This document shows, piece by piece, positions 13,094 through 20,535 of a stretch of DNA of 24,155 nucleotides. The translations under genes were made by a program, and so were the position numbers. Position 1 is the stretch's first letter; each line of letters begins with the position of its first letter. The DNA lies in IMG/VR virus record IMGVR_UViG_3300032265_001381, positions 1 through 24,155 of that record. One strand, written 5' to 3'. Source of the DNA: a virus. The notes below the pieces were generated by a model that saw only the letters and a list, made by a program, of their open reading frames with translations, was not told the DNA's origin and made no database searches.

Positions 13094-13112
13094 AAGGGCA
13101 TAATCCGCCCTT
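13094..13112 (-). terminator. Weak terminator-like hairpin at terL stop
   Basis: On the minus strand AAGGGC, a 7-base loop and GCCCTT form a 6-bp stem followed by TATTTGC. It overlaps the last bases of the terminase stop codon and abuts promoter-motif copy 3. The stem is short and the T tract poor, so termination is uncertain. Confidence 0.35.
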
Positions 13113-14556
13113 ATTGCGCATAGGGATTAGAAAATCGTTTTTTAGAGTCATCGTCGGCGTAGTCGTAGTCTCTTGCGGGCAATGGATCAAGCTGTAGCCA
13201 ACCTGAATCCCTAAGCACCCGCAACGCCTGAGACAGTGAGTCTACGTAGTCATCATGGCCGCCTGCCTCTGGAAACGAACATACCTGGCGCAAAAAACGT
13301 TTTGCCCAAGTGGCAAAGTCGCCCTTTTGTTCGGTGTCCTCTGGTATGAATACTTTACCTTTAGATACAAGGGGAGCGACAATGTTAAGCCGCTGTACCT
13401 TATCCGCTCTTCCAGGGTTGTAGCCACGGACAGGCACGGCCGCCCGCTGTAGTTCTTGGATTAGGCTAATGCCCGCCGACTTGTCTTCCATTAAGATCTG
13501 GTCTGCCTTACGGCCCTTACCAAACTCGTTATCTGATCCATAGACAACTTCTTTAAAGTCACTGATAACCTTACGACGCAGCTCAGGATACGACAAGTGC
13601 TCGTCCCATGCGTCCAGCAAGATGACCGACGTACCAGCGTCTTCTTGTTCAAATACTCCCCATACTGTGCAGGCCGTCGGGTCGTTCATTGTTTTTTCTG
13701 AGGTGGCTGGGTCGTACGAGGCTATGACGTACTCAAGGACTGGCGTTGGTTTATTTGCGGGCCACATCTTAAACTGTTTACGTTTAATAATGCCCGAGGC
13801 TTCTGGGTCAAGGATCTCGCCATAGATTTCTTGTCGGCCTTGGTCTGTGCCATCGTACGTCTCAAGCTGCTTAAAAAATGTCTCTGATAAATTGGCTCGG
13901 TTGTCGTACGAGCTGGCGTTGACCATGTACACGTCACCACCAATTTTACCTTCTGCTAAGTCTACAATTAATTCTTTTGGCTTTGGTGTGGTGGTAATAA
14001 TCTGCTGCACTCGAGCGATCCTGGGATCCTTGAGTCGGAGCGTAAACTGTACTCCGTCGTAGGCTTCATCGAGGTAATCAAACGCACACAGCTCGTCGAA
14101 CCAAGCGCCATGGTATTGTTTGCCGCGATACCGTTCAGGTTCAGAGGCGGGAATACCTTGAATGATAGAGCCGTTGGTAAGGGTGATCTCGAATAGAGAC
14201 TTGTTGTAGTCGCGGATGAGTGACTTGGGGATGATATTGATAAGCCCTGAGTCTCCCTCAAAACAAGTTGCACGTATATCGTTGGAGGTTGGGGCTGTGA
14301 CAAGCCATCTTGTATTGTCATAAAGCCAAGCACGAATACCAATCCAATGGCTGGCAGTGTGCGTCTTACCTGATCCACGGCCTGCAAGCATAAGGAACGT
14401 ATCATACTCATTGTCTTCTGGTTCTTTCTGATGGGGGAGTGCCTGTAACGACCACCTGACCTGCCACATAAGTGCCTCAAGCTGCTGGTTAGGCCAATGC
14501 TTACGCGCATCCGCAAACTTCTTTAGTGTAAGTTCTTGTTTGGGTGTTAAAGACAT
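13111..14556 (-). CDS. terL: Terminase large subunit
   Basis: This 481-aa packaging ATPase/nuclease has Walker A AGRGSGKT at about residues 58-65 and Walker B HGAWFDEL at about 149-156, followed by a coupling segment (IITTTPKP near 188). The RNase H-like nuclease carries the expected acidic residues in IASYDPATS (about 282), ILMEDKSAG (about 358) and GHDDYVDSLSQAL (about 436-440). It cuts concatemers and drives DNA into the head through the portal. The ATG at 14556 lies inside the end of the upstream Hint gene, and its ribosome binding site (AGGAGAAGG) is formed by Hint codons. No intein interrupts this gene. No small subunit is recognised nearby. Confidence 0.95.
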   Translation of the reverse strand: MSLTPKQELTLKKFADARKHWPNQQLEALMWQVRWSLQALPHQKEPEDNEYDTFLMLAGRGSGKTHTASHWIGIRAWLYDNTRWLVTAPTSNDIRATCFEGDSGLINIIPKSLIRDYNKSLFEITLTNGSIIQGIPASEPERYRGKQYHGAWFDELCAFDYLDEAYDGVQFTLRLKDPRIARVQQIITTTPKPKELIVDLAEGKIGGDVYMVNASSYDNRANLSETFFKQLETYDGTDQGRQEIYGEILDPEASGIIKRKQFKMWPANKPTPVLEYVIASYDPATSEKTMNDPTACTVWGVFEQEDAGTSVILLDAWDEHLSYPELRRKVISDFKEVVYGSDNEFGKGRKADQILMEDKSAGISLIQELQRAAVPVRGYNPGRADKVQRLNIVAPLVSKGKVFIPEDTEQKGDFATWAKRFLRQVCSFPEAGGHDDYVDSLSQALRVLRDSGWLQLDPLPARDYDYADDDSKKRFSNPYAQ

Positions 14557-15539
14557 GATATGAAGCCTTCTCCTACGAGAATCGTGTTGTCTTCCCCAGT
14601 GGTTTCTATATAAACACAGGATTGGGGTTGAATGGGATCTACGCTGCAGATGTACCGTCTACTCTGGTGCACCTTTACAGGCGGCGAGTTCTGGTTCTCT
14701 ATTAACTTGATGCGTGATTTAAAAAATAAAGTGTAGTGCTTAAACGTATTCTCAAAATTTTGGGTTGTTTTTATTCCAAGGGATTCAACTAAAAACTGAA
14801 TCTGAGAAATTAGGTTTAATTGTTTTGAAGAAAATTGAAACTTGTCTTTCTTTTGCGAGTAGACCCTGCTCTTAGTACAAAAAATTCCCCTAAGCAATTC
14901 AATTCGCTGTTCAGGAGAGCTTAGTAGGTAGTTATTTGATATTTTGGTGGGGATGTTGGGAACAAGCTGCGACTCAATGCTTGGGCTGACACTAAAATCC
15001 CTAGACCCTGTCTTTTGTTTTCTGCCAAATTTTGTTTTGTAGCCAAAGTCTTTAAACTGTTGCTCAACATAGTCTTGCATGCCGCGTGCTGCCGATAGTT
15101 TTCCGTTAGTTTTTCTAGCAAAAAACCAGAATCCCATAATGAACGGCGGGATTGGTAGTATCTGATGGGGTAGTTCCAGGGGTTGGGTGGTGGGGACAGA
15201 GTAGACTAAGCGGTTTCTTTTATTTCTAAGCGGTAAAGATCGTAGGTCATCAACCTTAGTAGGCTTTAGTGGGCGCCTAAATCGTTTAACTCCCATGTAG
15301 GAGTTAAGCCTGTTGCGGTACTTTTCATTTTCCAATGGAAGTCTAAGCGCACTATCGCCTTGGATGGTAAGCCAATCGCTAAAGGTAACCTTGTAGCACT
15401 CGGGCGCCTGGTAGTTTTGAATTAGCTTAATACGAACAATTTTGCCGTTCCTATCAAAGACATAATCACCCTCAACCAAACTACCTGCACGCTTCCAGTA
15501 ATCAAGCGTTAGTACTTTTTCTGTTGCTAATATCGCCAT
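14547..15539 (-). CDS. Free-standing degenerate intein (Hint/LAGLIDADG-like) protein
   Basis: This 330-aa protein is laid out like an intein with an endonuclease domain. Block A is WKRAGSLVEGDYVFDRNGKI (about 15-34) without the N-terminal catalytic Cys. The block B position (TIQGDSALRL, 58-67) lacks the T-x-x-H histidine. Two LAGLIDADG-like helices (FIMGFWFFARKTNG, 133-146; ELLRGIFCTKSRV, 214-226) have lost their acidic catalytic residues. FQFSSKQLNLISQIQFLVES then LGIKTT (235-258) is typical of such endonucleases. Block F (CVYIETTGEDN) and block G (ILVGEGFI) are followed by SCL instead of HN. Splicing and cutting are therefore both unlikely. It overlaps terL by 10 bases and its upstream neighbour by 38 bases. 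It could be a relic, or a structural or regulatory protein under selection; the intact frame favours the latter. Confidence 0.75.
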   Translation of the reverse strand: MAILATEKVLTLDYWKRAGSLVEGDYVFDRNGKIVRIKLIQNYQAPECYKVTFSDWLTIQGDSALRLPLENEKYRNRLNSYMGVKRFRRPLKPTKVDDLRSLPLRNKRNRLVYSVPTTQPLELPHQILPIPPFIMGFWFFARKTNGKLSAARGMQDYVEQQFKDFGYKTKFGRKQKTGSRDFSVSPSIESQLVPNIPTKISNNYLLSSPEQRIELLRGIFCTKSRVYSQKKDKFQFSSKQLNLISQIQFLVESLGIKTTQNFENTFKHYTLFFKSRIKLIENQNSPPVKVHQSRRYICSVDPIQPQSCVYIETTGEDNTILVGEGFISCL

Positions 15540-15810
15540 AAAAATTATTTAGGACCCAGCGGTCCAGCCAACGCCCTAGCGGCGCCCTTATGTTTGATTG
15601 TACTGAATACGGCAGCTTTTGTATTTCCAAAGCATCTGAAGACACCTTTAAACGAAACTGAATGTATTTAGCCGTCTCGTTGTTTAAAATCTCTGCCGGT
15701 ACGTTTACCACCTCAAAGTTGTTAAGGTCACACACTAGTACTTGGAATCCCTTGAACTCACCAATGGGACTTTCCAACGCACCTTTGATTTGGTATACAT
15801 AGTCATTCAT
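15502..15810 (-). CDS. First gene of packaging operon, unknown
   Basis: This 102-aa protein starts MNDYVYQIKGALESPIGEFK and ends GDISNRKSTNA. It has a beta-rich start (GFQVLVCDLNNFEVVNVPAE) and a helical, basic end (APLGRWLDRWVLNNF). The ATG at 15810 is chosen because it lies 6 bases after promoter-motif copy 4. An upstream in-frame GTG at 15894 would run through that motif and part of the repeat element. The gene overlaps the Hint gene by 38 bases. The position before terL is where a small terminase subunit is often found, but no helix-turn-helix is evident, so the function is left open. Confidence 0.55.
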   Translation of the reverse strand: MNDYVYQIKGALESPIGEFKGFQVLVCDLNNFEVVNVPAEILNNETAKYIQFRLKVSSDALEIQKLPYSVQSNIRAPLGRWLDRWVLNNFYGDISNRKSTNA

Positions 15811-15816
15811 ACTTAC

Positions 15817-15828
15817 ATTAATGCAAAC
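15817..15828 (-). promoter_or_regulatory. Candidate phage promoter motif, copy 4
   Basis: The minus strand reads GTTTGCATTAAT, then GTAAGT and the ATG at 15810, the same arrangement as copy 2. It would start the packaging operon (102-aa gene, Hint, terL). No GGGCGG box is present upstream. Confidence 0.5.
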
Positions 15829-15869
15829 AATCGTTGTTTTCCTTCCAATAATATAAATAAATGCCAAAA

Positions 15870-16025
15870 TGCACGGGTTGCGAGGATTATTCACTAGCTC
15901 CAGTACTTAATAATATTTTTTTTTAATTTTTTTTAAAAAGAATAAAAAGGGGTTACAACCCACTCAACCCGTGCACTGAAGTTGTAAGTGCTTGATTATA
16001 TTGAATCTAGATGATAATAATTCTC
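15870..16025. repeat. AT-tract element with inverted-repeat ends, copy A
   Basis: The ends are an exact 11-bp inverted repeat, TGCACGGGTTG (15870-15880) and CAACCCGTGCA (15965-15975). Between them lies a T9-AA-T8-AAAAAG tract that is identical in copy B (21188-21343). A small hairpin GGGT-TACA-ACCC precedes the right arm. Similarity to copy B extends about 50 bases past the right arm (TTGATT, TAGATGA). Both copies lie in the same orientation at starts of transcription units. It could be a replication origin (unwinding element plus binding sites) or a shared regulatory or recombination element. Confidence 0.75.
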
Positions 16026-16192: not shown

Positions 16193-16274
16193 GTGAGTAC
16201 TCACTTACAGGCCAAGCTGTCGCATGCACCATATTGGTGCACTAAGTAAGTGAGCGCTCACTGGGGGGCTTGGC
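16193..16274. promoter_or_regulatory. Nested palindrome cluster (operator-like)
   Basis: This segment holds the perfect palindromes GTGAGTACTCAC (16193-16204) and AGTGAGCGCTCACT (16249-16262). Between them is the dyad TGCACCATATTGGTGCA (16225-16241). The arms CTCACTTAC (16200-16208) and GTAAGTGAG (16246-16254) are mutually complementary, as are GCCAAGC (16211-16217) and GCTTGGC (16268-16274). Alternative cruciforms or two types of operator are possible. Confidence 0.55.
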
Positions 16275-16296
16275 ACTCAGGCACATCGACTGCTGC

Positions 16297-16355
16297 TAAT
16301 GGGGACAGAGTGGGTAGCGGGCCAGTGTGCTGCACTGCAGTAATGGGGACAGAGT
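16297..16355. repeat. 15-base direct repeat pair
   Basis: TAATGGGGACAGAGT occurs at 16297-16311 and 16341-16355, 44 bases apart start to start (about four helical turns). It is preceded by GCTGC or CTGCAG-like bases. This phased spacing suits a protein-binding repeat. Confidence 0.5.
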
Positions 16356-16390
16356 CGACGTGCTGCACTGTGTCATTGCCAGTTAGGCAG

Positions 16391-16407
16391 TGCACCATGT
16401 TGGTGCA
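16391..16407. promoter_or_regulatory. Second TGCACCA dyad (operator-like)
   Basis: TGCACCATGTTGGTGCA has 7-bp arms identical to those of the dyad at 16225-16241, differing in one central base. Two near-identical dyads 166 bases apart in a non-coding divergent region suggest a dimeric repressor or looping site. Confidence 0.5.
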
Positions 16408-16691
16408 TTGGCATAGGGGCGTCTAGACGGGCCGCCATGACGTGATCGCCAGTCAGGCTACTAGCGTATCACCGCGCCGAGATCTCTAGCAATCCAGTAG
16501 ACAGTGGGGTTGCGGGGAGGGGTTACGCGCAGGCGAGGCGATAGGGGGGAGTGGACCGCCATACCAGCAGCCGGCAGCCCCCACGCTATCCCACTATCCC
16601 CCACCGCGCCCCACTAATCGCCACCAAACCCAGTAGCCAATTGGGCCCCAAAGATTGTCAGATTAGAGGGTAGTTTTTTTGTCGAAAGTTC

Positions 16692-16720: not shown

Positions 16721-16810
16721 GATTCTGTTGTAACGAAGTACGCAAACCCAACCGCGATAAATAAGGGGGAGCCGGCAGAACCGGTGCTGTTATCCAACAC
16801 AGCGTATGAG

Positions 16811-16861
16811 GGTCTCAGCGTTATGCGCTGACTGATGAGGCCAAGGACCAAGGCCGAAACC
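16811..16861 (+). ncRNA. Hammerhead ribozyme 1 (stem III open)
   Basis: The core is complete. GGTC (16811-16814) is the cleavage triplet with its stem III base. Stem I is TCAGCG/CGCTGA with a TTATG loop (16815-16831). CTGATGA follows (16832-16838). Stem II is GGCC/GGCC with a 9-base loop (16839-16855). GAAA lies at 16856-16859. Stem III is only GGT/ACC, but GGT at 16783-16785 and the hairpin GCTGT/ACAGC (16786-16803) could stack on ACC 16862-16864. Predicted cleavage is after C16814. The ribosome binding site AAGGAG (16865-16870) follows directly, with the ATG at 16878. Confidence 0.75.
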
Positions 16862-16877
16862 ACCAAGGAGATACATT

Positions 16878-17231
16878 ATGAAATACGATATTAGCGTAGC
16901 AACTGATCTTTATACCGCAGGTAATACCGAAGACGGCCAGCCGTTTATCGCCGAGTTATATTACGTAGTAATGCAATACGAAGATGGTCGTAAGTTTCAG
17001 CATCAAGCCATATTCTTCGGTGCAGAGTATAGCGAAGACGAAGACGGTTTTGGTTACGCAGATGTACGCGAAACAGCATTAGCTAACGCAGAACGTTTAG
17101 CCGAGCGCGTGCGCAATGGTAATATTAATTTTAGATGTTGGGATGAAGTAGATCCAGCCTACGGATCAGATGCATACGTAGCGCAGGGTACAGAGGCTAA
17201 GCGTGTATTCGCTGAACGTCTCGAAGGATAG
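16878..17231 (+). CDS. Early small protein, unknown
   Basis: This acidic 117-aa protein starts MKYDISVATDLYTAGNTEDG. It has beta-like segments (IAELYYVVMQYEDGRKFQHQ) and a helix (ETALANAERLAERVRNG). The ATG has AAGGAG 7 bases upstream, directly after hammerhead 1. The next ribozyme starts two bases after its stop codon. No family is recognised; it is probably an early host-takeover or accessory gene. Confidence 0.7.
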   Translation: MKYDISVATDLYTAGNTEDGQPFIAELYYVVMQYEDGRKFQHQAIFFGAEYSEDEDGFGYADVRETALANAERLAERVRNGNINFRCWDEVDPAYGSDAYVAQGTEAKRVFAERLEG

Positions 17232-17233
17232 CA

Positions 17234-17286
17234 GGTCGAAACAGCCTAACGGCTGTCTGAGCGTTAGGCGCTCACTGATGATGACC
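17234..17286 (+). ncRNA. Hammerhead ribozyme 2 (type II)
   Basis: The order is GGTC (stem II strand, 17234-17237), GAAA (17238-17241), stem III with arms CAGCC/GGCTG plus the A-T pair and a TAAC loop, and TC at 17256-17257. Stem I is TGAGCG/CGCTCA with loop TTAGG (17258-17274). Core CTGATGA (17275-17281), an extra T and GACC (17283-17286) close stem II. Cleavage is predicted after C17257, leaving a hairpin on each side of the cut. The ends lie in stem II, so this is the type II topology. It lies wholly between two genes. Confidence 0.85.
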
Positions 17287-17306
17287 AACCAACTAGGAGA
17301 TGCACC

Positions 17307-17528
17307 ATGATTACAACAGGCAAAACAGAATACGACGTAGGACTAAGCTGGAAAGCATACGAGCACCTCGGCAGCAAGGGCAAGTTGGCTCTCAAGCGGG
17401 AACATAACTTTAAGGAGCGCACGTTCAGAACCAAAGATGAGGCCGAGCAGTTTGCAGCGGCCGAACGCGAACGAACTGGGCTGGAGCTGCGCGTAGGTGA
17501 GTGCACCCCAATCTACGGCATTCTGTAA
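17307..17528 (+). CDS. Early small basic protein, unknown
   Basis: This 73-aa protein starts MITTGKTEYDVGLSWKAYEH. The middle is basic (KLALKREHNFKERTF). The FRTKDEAEQFAAAERE segment resembles ends of other small proteins here (67-aa protein at 18801, 28-aa fragment at 24072). The ribosome binding site AGGAG lies 8 bases before the ATG in the leader released by hammerhead 2. The function is unknown. Confidence 0.7.
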   Translation: MITTGKTEYDVGLSWKAYEHLGSKGKLALKREHNFKERTFRTKDEAEQFAAAERERTGLELRVGECTPIYGIL

Positions 17529-17532
17529 CACA

Positions 17533-17586
17533 GGTCGAAACCGCATGGACTGCGGTCTCCACGTTAGGCGTGGACTGATGATGACC
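17533..17586 (+). ncRNA. Hammerhead ribozyme 3 (type II)
   Basis: The architecture matches ribozyme 2 with different helix sequences: GGTC, GAAA (17537-17540), stem III with arms CCGCA/TGCGG plus the A-T pair and a TGGAC loop, TC at 17556-17557, and stem I TCCACG/CGTGGA with loop TTAGG (17558-17574). CTGATGA (17575-17581), one extra T and GACC follow. Stems I and III differ from ribozyme 2 by compensating changes, while the core and stem I loop are identical. Cleavage is predicted after C17557. Confidence 0.85.
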
Positions 17587-17606
17587 AACCAACTAGGAGA
17601 TACACC

Positions 17607-17792
17607 ATGACTAAATACCAACTTGAAGAGCATCTACGCGCCCTGCTAGTAGAAGATCGCCTTTGTTATGAAGAGGGTGACTGGGAACGCCGCAATTACA
17701 TCGGGATGTGCATTGATAACACCCGTGACCAGCTCGCGGACATCGAGGCCGAGTGGGCACTTGTAATGCACGAAGCACAAAATAACCAATAG
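17607..17792 (+). CDS. Early small acidic protein, unknown
   Basis: This 61-aa protein starts MTKYQLEEHLRALLVEDRLC. It is almost entirely helical and acidic (NTRDQLADIEAEWALVMHEA). AGGAG precedes the ATG in the leader downstream of hammerhead 3. Its stop codon lies inside the next gene's ribosome-binding leader. The function is unknown. Confidence 0.65.
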   Translation: MTKYQLEEHLRALLVEDRLCYEEGDWERRNYIGMCIDNTRDQLADIEAEWALVMHEAQNNQ

Positions 17793-19965: not shown

Positions 19966-20535
19966 GTGGCTGACAATGACATAAAGACGGACTACCTGCA
20001 GTCACTTTTTGGCATTGAGCCACTAACCATGAAAGAAGAGCACGCACTCGGTGCTCGCATAGCCAAGGGTGACAGCCTTGCGCTAGATAAACTCGTAACC
20101 CACAACCTACGCTTTGTGCCACACGTGGTCTGTAAGACGACGTACTGGCAGCACGGCAAGATGCCGCTGGAGGACCTGCTCGCCATTGGTAATGAGCAGC
20201 TGCTCATCGCGGCCAAGCGTTGGAAGCCTATGAAGAATATTAGGTTTTCGGCGTTCGCCAGGTCATTCATACTGCGTGGACTTCAGCGCGAGCTGGACAA
20301 CACGTCAAACATCATCAGATTACCCATCAACATCATGGAAGAACTAAAGCGCATGAACTATAACGAGCGCATGCTACTACAAGAGCTGGGGCGTAAGCCA
20401 CTGGTATCTGAGATAGCAAAGACGATGGACGTAAAAGAGTCTAGGATTCACCAGCTCAAGGGCTTCATAGCCAGAGAGCCGGTGAGCCTAGACAACATTG
20501 AGAACGACAAGTTTTTTGAGGAAAATGATGATTAA
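19966..20535 (+). CDS. Sigma-70-like factor lacking region 4
   Basis: This 189-aa protein begins at a GTG with AAGGGAA upstream. Region 1.2 is LTMKEEHALGARIAKGDSLA (20-39). Region 2 runs from NLRFVPHVV through PLEDLLAIGNEQLLIAAKRW and IRFSAFARSFILRGLQRELD to IRLPINIMEE (47-126). Region 3 is MLLQELGRKPLVSEIAKTMD then VKESRIHQLK (136-165), followed by PVSLDNI. It ends there: region 4, which reads the -35 box, is absent. The ATWW of region 2.3 in housekeeping factors is replaced by ARSF, so strand-opening specificity may differ. It probably binds host RNA polymerase core and redirects it to phage promoters. The family call is strong; the target promoters are inferred. Confidence 0.85.
   Translation: MADNDIKTDYLQSLFGIEPLTMKEEHALGARIAKGDSLALDKLVTHNLRFVPHVVCKTTYWQHGKMPLEDLLAIGNEQLLIAAKRWKPMKNIRFSAFARSFILRGLQRELDNTSNIIRLPINIMEELKRMNYNERMLLQELGRKPLVSEIAKTMDVKESRIHQLKGFIAREPVSLDNIENDKFFEENDD

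Follow-up and report, generated by a model that had tools for sequence, protein, structure and literature searches.

Three cis-acting hammerhead ribozymes in an early phage transcript would cut the polycistronic RNA into single-gene messages with defined, hairpin-capped ends, a reading to which we give, judging from sequence, a probability of about two in three. The window, i.e. the whole stretch of DNA that was analysed, is a 24,155-base IMG/VR virus record in which the minus strand carries the structural genes and an operon runs rightward. A hammerhead core lies ahead of each of the first three genes at the head of this operon, all on the + strand, and genes for a sigma-factor-like protein and a D5-type primase are located further on.

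Hammerhead cores at the head of the early operon

The core CUGANGA / GAAA with a U-H cleavage site is present in all three elements, termed HHR1, HHR2 and HHR3. As the original prediction had claimed, one hammerhead stands before each of three genes, and two of them, HHR2 and HHR3, are in type II order; HHR1, the weakest, is in type III order. Our predicted cuts fall at the same positions that it had named, and ribosome binding sites were found just past the ribozymes where it had placed them. The features are as follows.

16743..16810, + strand: structured leader, module A (hairpins CCGG/CCGG and GCUGU/ACAGC), directly 5' of HHR1
16811..16861, + strand: HHR1, type III hammerhead, predicted cut after 16814, stem III of 3 bp
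16865..16870, + strand: Shine-Dalgarno (SD) sequence AAGGAG of gene 1
16878..17231, + strand: gene 1, 117 aa, phrog_1507, homologues in L100-L110
17234..17286, + strand: HHR2, type II hammerhead, 2 nt past the gene 1 stop, predicted cut after 17257
17295..17299, + strand: SD sequence AGGAG of gene 2
17307..17528, + strand: gene 2, 73 aa, orthologues with and without an upstream ribozyme
17533..17586, + strand: HHR3, type II hammerhead, 4 nt past the gene 2 stop, predicted cut after 17557
17595..17599, + strand: SD sequence AGGAG of gene 3
17607..17792, + strand: gene 3, 61 aa
17803..18057, + strand: gene 4, 84 aa, SD tail as in genes 1-3, no ribozyme (its orthologue in L121 has one)

The ATG start codons of genes 1, 2 and 3 lie at 16878, 17307 and 17607, and no family match was found for the products of genes 2 and 3. 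Gene 4 (17803) carries the same leader tail, CCAATAGGAGATACACC, as the ribozyme-bearing genes, but no ribozyme.

By their sequence, HHR2 and HHR3 are clear type II hammerheads. Both follow the order GGUC, GAAA, stem III, UC^, stem I (6 bp, loop UUAGG), CUGAUGA, U and GACC, with one additional U between A9 and stem II, and they differ from each other by compensatory changes in stems I and III. Fold prediction gave HHR2 as drawn (stems 0.77-1.0) and HHR3 largely so (stem II 0.42). The R1 covariance model (54 relatives) scored them at 74.2 and 70.1 bits, respectively, and in the alignment of these relatives the three helices around the core are kept by covariation. The loose core pattern GAAACN{6,30}GTCN{10,35}CTGATGA matched twice, against 0.03 matches expected by chance. 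No pseudoknot of at least 4 bp between loop I and the 3' tail was seen by inspection, the loop GUUAGGC having no 4-nt complement in the tail AACCAACUAGGAGAU.

HHR1 is laid out as GGU-C^, stem I (16815-16831), CUGAUGA (16832-16838), stem II (16839-16855), GAAA (16856-16859) and CC, with a stem I of 6 bp closed by the loop UUAUG and a stem II of 4 bp. Under permissive settings it matched Rfam Hammerhead_3 (RF00008) at 33.7 bits (E 5.1e-5 in 1.6 kb), below the gathering value of 48.5. In the predicted fold its 3-bp stem III was occupied at 0.07-0.08 and stem II was good, while stem I reached only about 0.66 because of competing pairings. A 3-bp stem III also occurs in several other viral type III copies. 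The R1-model score of HHR1 (26.2 bits) was rejected as evidence, since stemless chance pattern matches (L057, L058 and L067) score 25-31 bits. Hence three things speak for HHR1: its stems I and II, the match to Hammerhead_3, and the fact that no other type III descriptor match occurred in the loci first fetched. HHR1 is the least certain of the three ribozymes.

Relatives, covariation and placement between genes

The first search used a pattern without any pairing requirement and yielded 54 viral-contig stretches and 13 genome-contig stretches. Both stems were formed in 69 of the 73 unique pattern matches, compared with 4 of 14,600 shuffles. In the alignment of 54 relatives, 97.7% of pair cells were paired and 12 of 16 pairs showed changes on both sides, a level of covariation reached by 0 of 500 shuffles; the aligned sequences were partly selected by stem length, whereas the 69/73 count is free of such choice. 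Three further narrow-pattern scans of IMG/VR enlarged the set to at least 297 distinct hammerheads (at least 238 of type II, at least 45 of type III and at least 14 of type I), with up to eight in one contig (within about 7 kb of a 100.8-kb contig). The same descriptors gave 0 matches on reversed sequences. Two type III calls, L302 and L306, probably represent type II cores that were miscalled, and the later counts exclude them. Among the matches listed whose stem II has 4 bp or more, 101 copies had the U after A9 and 130 lacked it, and an A immediately before stem II was nearly invariant (225/231); these frequencies apply to the sampled set alone, since parts of stem II and of the core were prescribed by the search patterns.

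In the window as well as in its relatives, several hammerheads of the same direction border single phage genes, and they are tightly fitted between the stop codon and the SD sequence. In the first set, 73 of 83 ribozymes started within -12 to +3 nt of the stop of the upstream ORF, as compared with 6.4% of random positions, and an SD sequence with a start codon followed within 40 nt downstream in 74 of 83. Similarly, among the type II matches listed from the larger set, the start lay within -12 to +6 nt of the upstream stop in 195 of 228, and SD/start followed within 45 nt in 176 of 228.

Type III copies differ in what they can leave behind. As a type III ribozyme cannot leave a 3' hairpin on the upstream product, the separate hairpin frequently found just upstream of type III copies (25/43 among the matches listed) would be in keeping with a requirement for a capped 3' end. 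Such a hairpin was seen in 23% of dinucleotide shuffles, 26% of ribozyme-free gaps and 15% of type II copies. Among the matches listed, this hairpin accompanied 17 of 24 copies with a stem III of 3-4 bp and 8 of 19 with at least 5 bp; alternatively, it may support a short stem III by stacking. Many type III copies adjoining a stop codon have no upstream hairpin.

Rfam gives little of this picture. On the window, no Rfam 15 family reached the gathering threshold, Hammerhead_II (RF02276) and Hammerhead_3 included; under permissive settings HHR2 appeared at E = 5 only and HHR3 gave no match. When eight relatives were compared with Hammerhead_II, the only matches were pseudoknot-type copies with a 2-bp stem II in L038, a locus that carries both type II forms, i.e. 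a 2-bp stem II with a loop I-tail pseudoknot and a 4-bp stem II without the pseudoknot. About 45 copies of types I-III with a stem II of four to five bp, in 31 further loci, gave no Rfam match, and none of about 22 copies with a four-bp stem II, in 15 further loci, matched RF02276. Rfam alone was therefore rejected as a test of these hammerheads, for it missed the family. The covariance-model check put forward in the original prediction gives no gathering-level match and would be a false negative for this type II subtype. The failed match lies with the models rather than with the motifs. A common class of phage ribozymes is overlooked by standard Rfam annotation, which leaves phage operons without their predicted cut sites.

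One viral contig with a type III hammerhead also holds a Pistol ribozyme (L252:8758-8824, Rfam 40.4 bits) at a distance of about 2.7 kb; different self-cleaving classes share phage neighbourhoods.

Predicted processing and known systems

Behind the passing RNA polymerase, each hammerhead would fold and cut its own strand at the predicted site, with the products 16815-17257 (443 nt), 17258-17557 (300 nt) and 17558 onward. In every case the downstream message would begin with a 5'-OH and a stem I hairpin of 6-7 bp, followed by a free tail and the SD sequence. At type II copies, the upstream message would close with the stem III hairpin, which would lie just past the stop codon and bear a 2',3'-cyclic phosphate at its end. 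The motifs, with their covariation, orientation and geometry, were observed; the cleavage, the message stability and the benefit we infer. The likely benefit would be the same defined ends, hairpin-capped and 5'-OH, for each small early gene, whichever gene has recombined alongside it. Such ends would be expected to slow both 5'-end-dependent and 3' exonuclease decay and to make expression independent of the neighbours. The splitting of one polycistronic RNA, as originally proposed, is supported for the array by its anatomy and by the comparison with hundreds of loci, but HHR1 is weak on paper.

RNase III cuts the early polycistronic mRNA of phage T7 at gene borders and leaves hairpin ends. 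The T7 processing needs a host protein, whereas the window RNA is predicted to cut itself. In the engineered RiboJ element (the sTRSV hammerhead plus a hairpin), a cut upstream of the ribosome binding site leaves a hairpin-headed mRNA; placed upstream of a gene in E. coli, RiboJ raised transcripts about twofold and protein 2-10 fold (PMC6206723). RiboJ, present as a single copy at a promoter, is a functional parallel to the window array rather than a member of the same group.

Serial phage hammerheads are a known kind, because Perreault et al. in 2011 described type II hammerheads and clusters around single prophage genes, made the same processing proposal and reported cleavage of tandem arrays in vitro and, for one array, in E. 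coli (PMC3088659). A tandem series acting in intercistronic processing, which had been called unusual for the window, had accordingly already been proposed. The window array resembles those prophage clusters, in which hammerheads of types I-III lie close together around single genes or short blocks (PMC3088659). The type II motifs of Perreault et al. mostly have a short stem II and a pseudoknot between loop I and the 3' tail, of at least 4 bp in the majority (PMC3088659). Unlike them, the type in the window has a 4-bp stem II, the extra U, a GUNNKGC loop I, no pseudoknot and a tight stop-SD fit. With Rfam Hammerhead_II the window copies share the type II permutation and the catalytic core, though they do not match the model; HHR1 shares the type III order and core with Hammerhead_3.

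A literature search for Hammerhead_II in phages retrieved nothing. In the open-access literature searched, we did not find the subtype with a 4-bp stem II that Rfam fails to recognise, a stop-ribozyme-SD geometry measured for hundreds of copies, gene-by-gene gain and loss of ribozymes, or the leader element that HHR1 replaces. What is new is therefore the Rfam-unrecognised type II subtype, the tight stop-ribozyme-SD geometry, the presence or absence at orthologues, and the replacement by HHR1 of a leader that is structured in relatives. A 2017 review calls the role of hammerheads in prokaryotes and phages an open question (PMC6155905). Direct tests of the mRNA-processing idea are made possible by the fixed stop-ribozyme-SD-ATG geometry, by the serial copies, and by close relatives that naturally have or lack the ribozyme at one and the same gene.

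Gain and loss, the leader element and alternative readings

G009 (63.7 kb) is a close relative of the window, with 87% DNA identity over 11 kb and a 98% identical TerL. Its array holds four type II ribozymes and no HHR1, and its similarity to the window stops inside HHR1. The array is the variable segment between long colinear blocks common to both. The ribozyme upstream of gene 2 is present in the window, L111 and L112 and absent in L113-L120, while that upstream of gene 4 is present in L121 and absent in the window; orthologues of genes 2 and 4 without a ribozyme indicate that processing is not essential at a given gene. Among isolate phages, the nearest by TerL, Caulobacter phage GB2A (43%) and MW202545 (52.5%), have no array, and blastn of the array against isolate phages gave no match, HHR3 finding only chance pieces of 19-26 nt.

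These observations also suit a genomic role, in which the ribozymes are real and the repeats of ribozyme and SD sequence mainly provide short homology at gene borders, by which early-gene cassettes shuffle between phages. The variable segment between colinear blocks, the orthologous genes with and without ribozymes beside different neighbours, and the near-identical core and tail sequences across copies all favour it. Recombination, however, needs neither the sense orientation nor the stop-SD geometry, and the stems are not conserved letter by letter but differ by compensatory changes, a sign of selection on the RNA fold. We therefore consider it unlikely that this is the main role, and keep to the processing of the early transcript.

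In many relatives the array is preceded by a conserved leader element. The last leader hairpin (AAGAUAGUARUGCUC...GAGGCARUACUAAC) takes the place that HHR1 has in the window; over few sequences, it was 100% paired with 4 covarying pairs (slide -2). Its reference copy is located as follows.

L011:4004-4057 (G009 ~24541-24594): conserved leader hairpin, just before the first gene of array phages

The other loci with this hairpin are L006, L007, L010, L013, L018, L020, L025-L030, L033, L036, L039, L043, L044, L048, L053, L054, L126, L127, L170, L189, L200, L229 and L237. Module A of the window is near-identical in L011, L033, L007, L025 and L044 and shows few changes in L054. In 26 of the 28 leader-element loci, the serial ribozymes begin one gene (about 260-515 nt) downstream of the structured leader, and the remaining two loci (L126 and L127) stop close to the element. 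Where a phage has the conserved leader, every ribozyme found is downstream of it and none upstream. The leader element had no match in Rfam. Other structured modules often precede the leader hairpin, and a sigma-70-like promoter was seen by eye in some relatives. In G009 the leader hairpin comes after a perfect 24-bp stem that encloses a further folded domain (L123:4373-4620, G009 24373-24620, fold z = -7); this 24-bp-stem element may be a substrate for RNase III or a ribozyme not yet known. A wider reading would have the hammerheads of many environmental phages act as mRNA punctuation (stop codon-ribozyme-SD) that is gained and lost per gene, together with the leader hairpin as a processing element, possibly a site for RNase III or a self-cleaving RNA of a class not yet described; taken as a whole, we regard it as rather unlikely.

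The ribozymes might also be sensors instead of constitutive scissors, with a ribosome or an alternative pairing gating cleavage. Since the ribozyme starts 0-4 nt past the upstream stop, a ribosome that has reached this stop would hide the 5' strand of stem II, and the leader segment CAGCGUAUGA can pair with the 3' arm of HHR1 stem I. The tight spacing may nevertheless merely reflect a compact genome, no conserved sensor domain was seen, and hammerheads usually cut co-transcriptionally, all of which makes such a switch quite unlikely.

It is very unlikely that gene-length RNAs, set free by two hammerheads with 5'-OH and 2',3'-cyclic phosphate ends, are joined into circular mRNAs through RtcB or ribozyme ligation. 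Two hammerheads do flank each unit, and hybrid ribozymes could form since the type II halves meet only via the near-constant stem II (GGUC/GACC). Nonetheless, GGUC and GGCC stems are mixed within arrays, which means that this compatibility is not kept, and Perreault et al. sought circular or spliced products and found none (PMC3088659). That the motifs are inactive look-alikes or decayed ribozymes, as the missing gathering-level match and the extra U after A9 in HHR2 and HHR3 might suggest, is highly improbable in view of the strong covariation, the invariant core, the hundreds of copies with the same geometry and the lack of matches on reversed sequences.

Several minor features of the window were recorded as well. 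The early operon encodes a phage sigma-70-family protein (19966-20535; phrog_351, Pfam Sigma70_r3). On the minus strand, in the region 14547-15894, a 330-aa ORF that matches phrog_15, a TerL profile, directly precedes TerL (13111-14556) and resembles an intein or homing-endonuclease insertion; a 130-aa ORF in this region also precedes TerL. The window TerL may be split or have an intein-like insert. A long protein with collagen-like GYSG/ISGYSG repeats, probably a tail fibre, is encoded at 3-2000 on the minus strand. Between the divergent operons lies a GC-rich spacer with G and C runs (16250-16660), which is partly conserved in G009.
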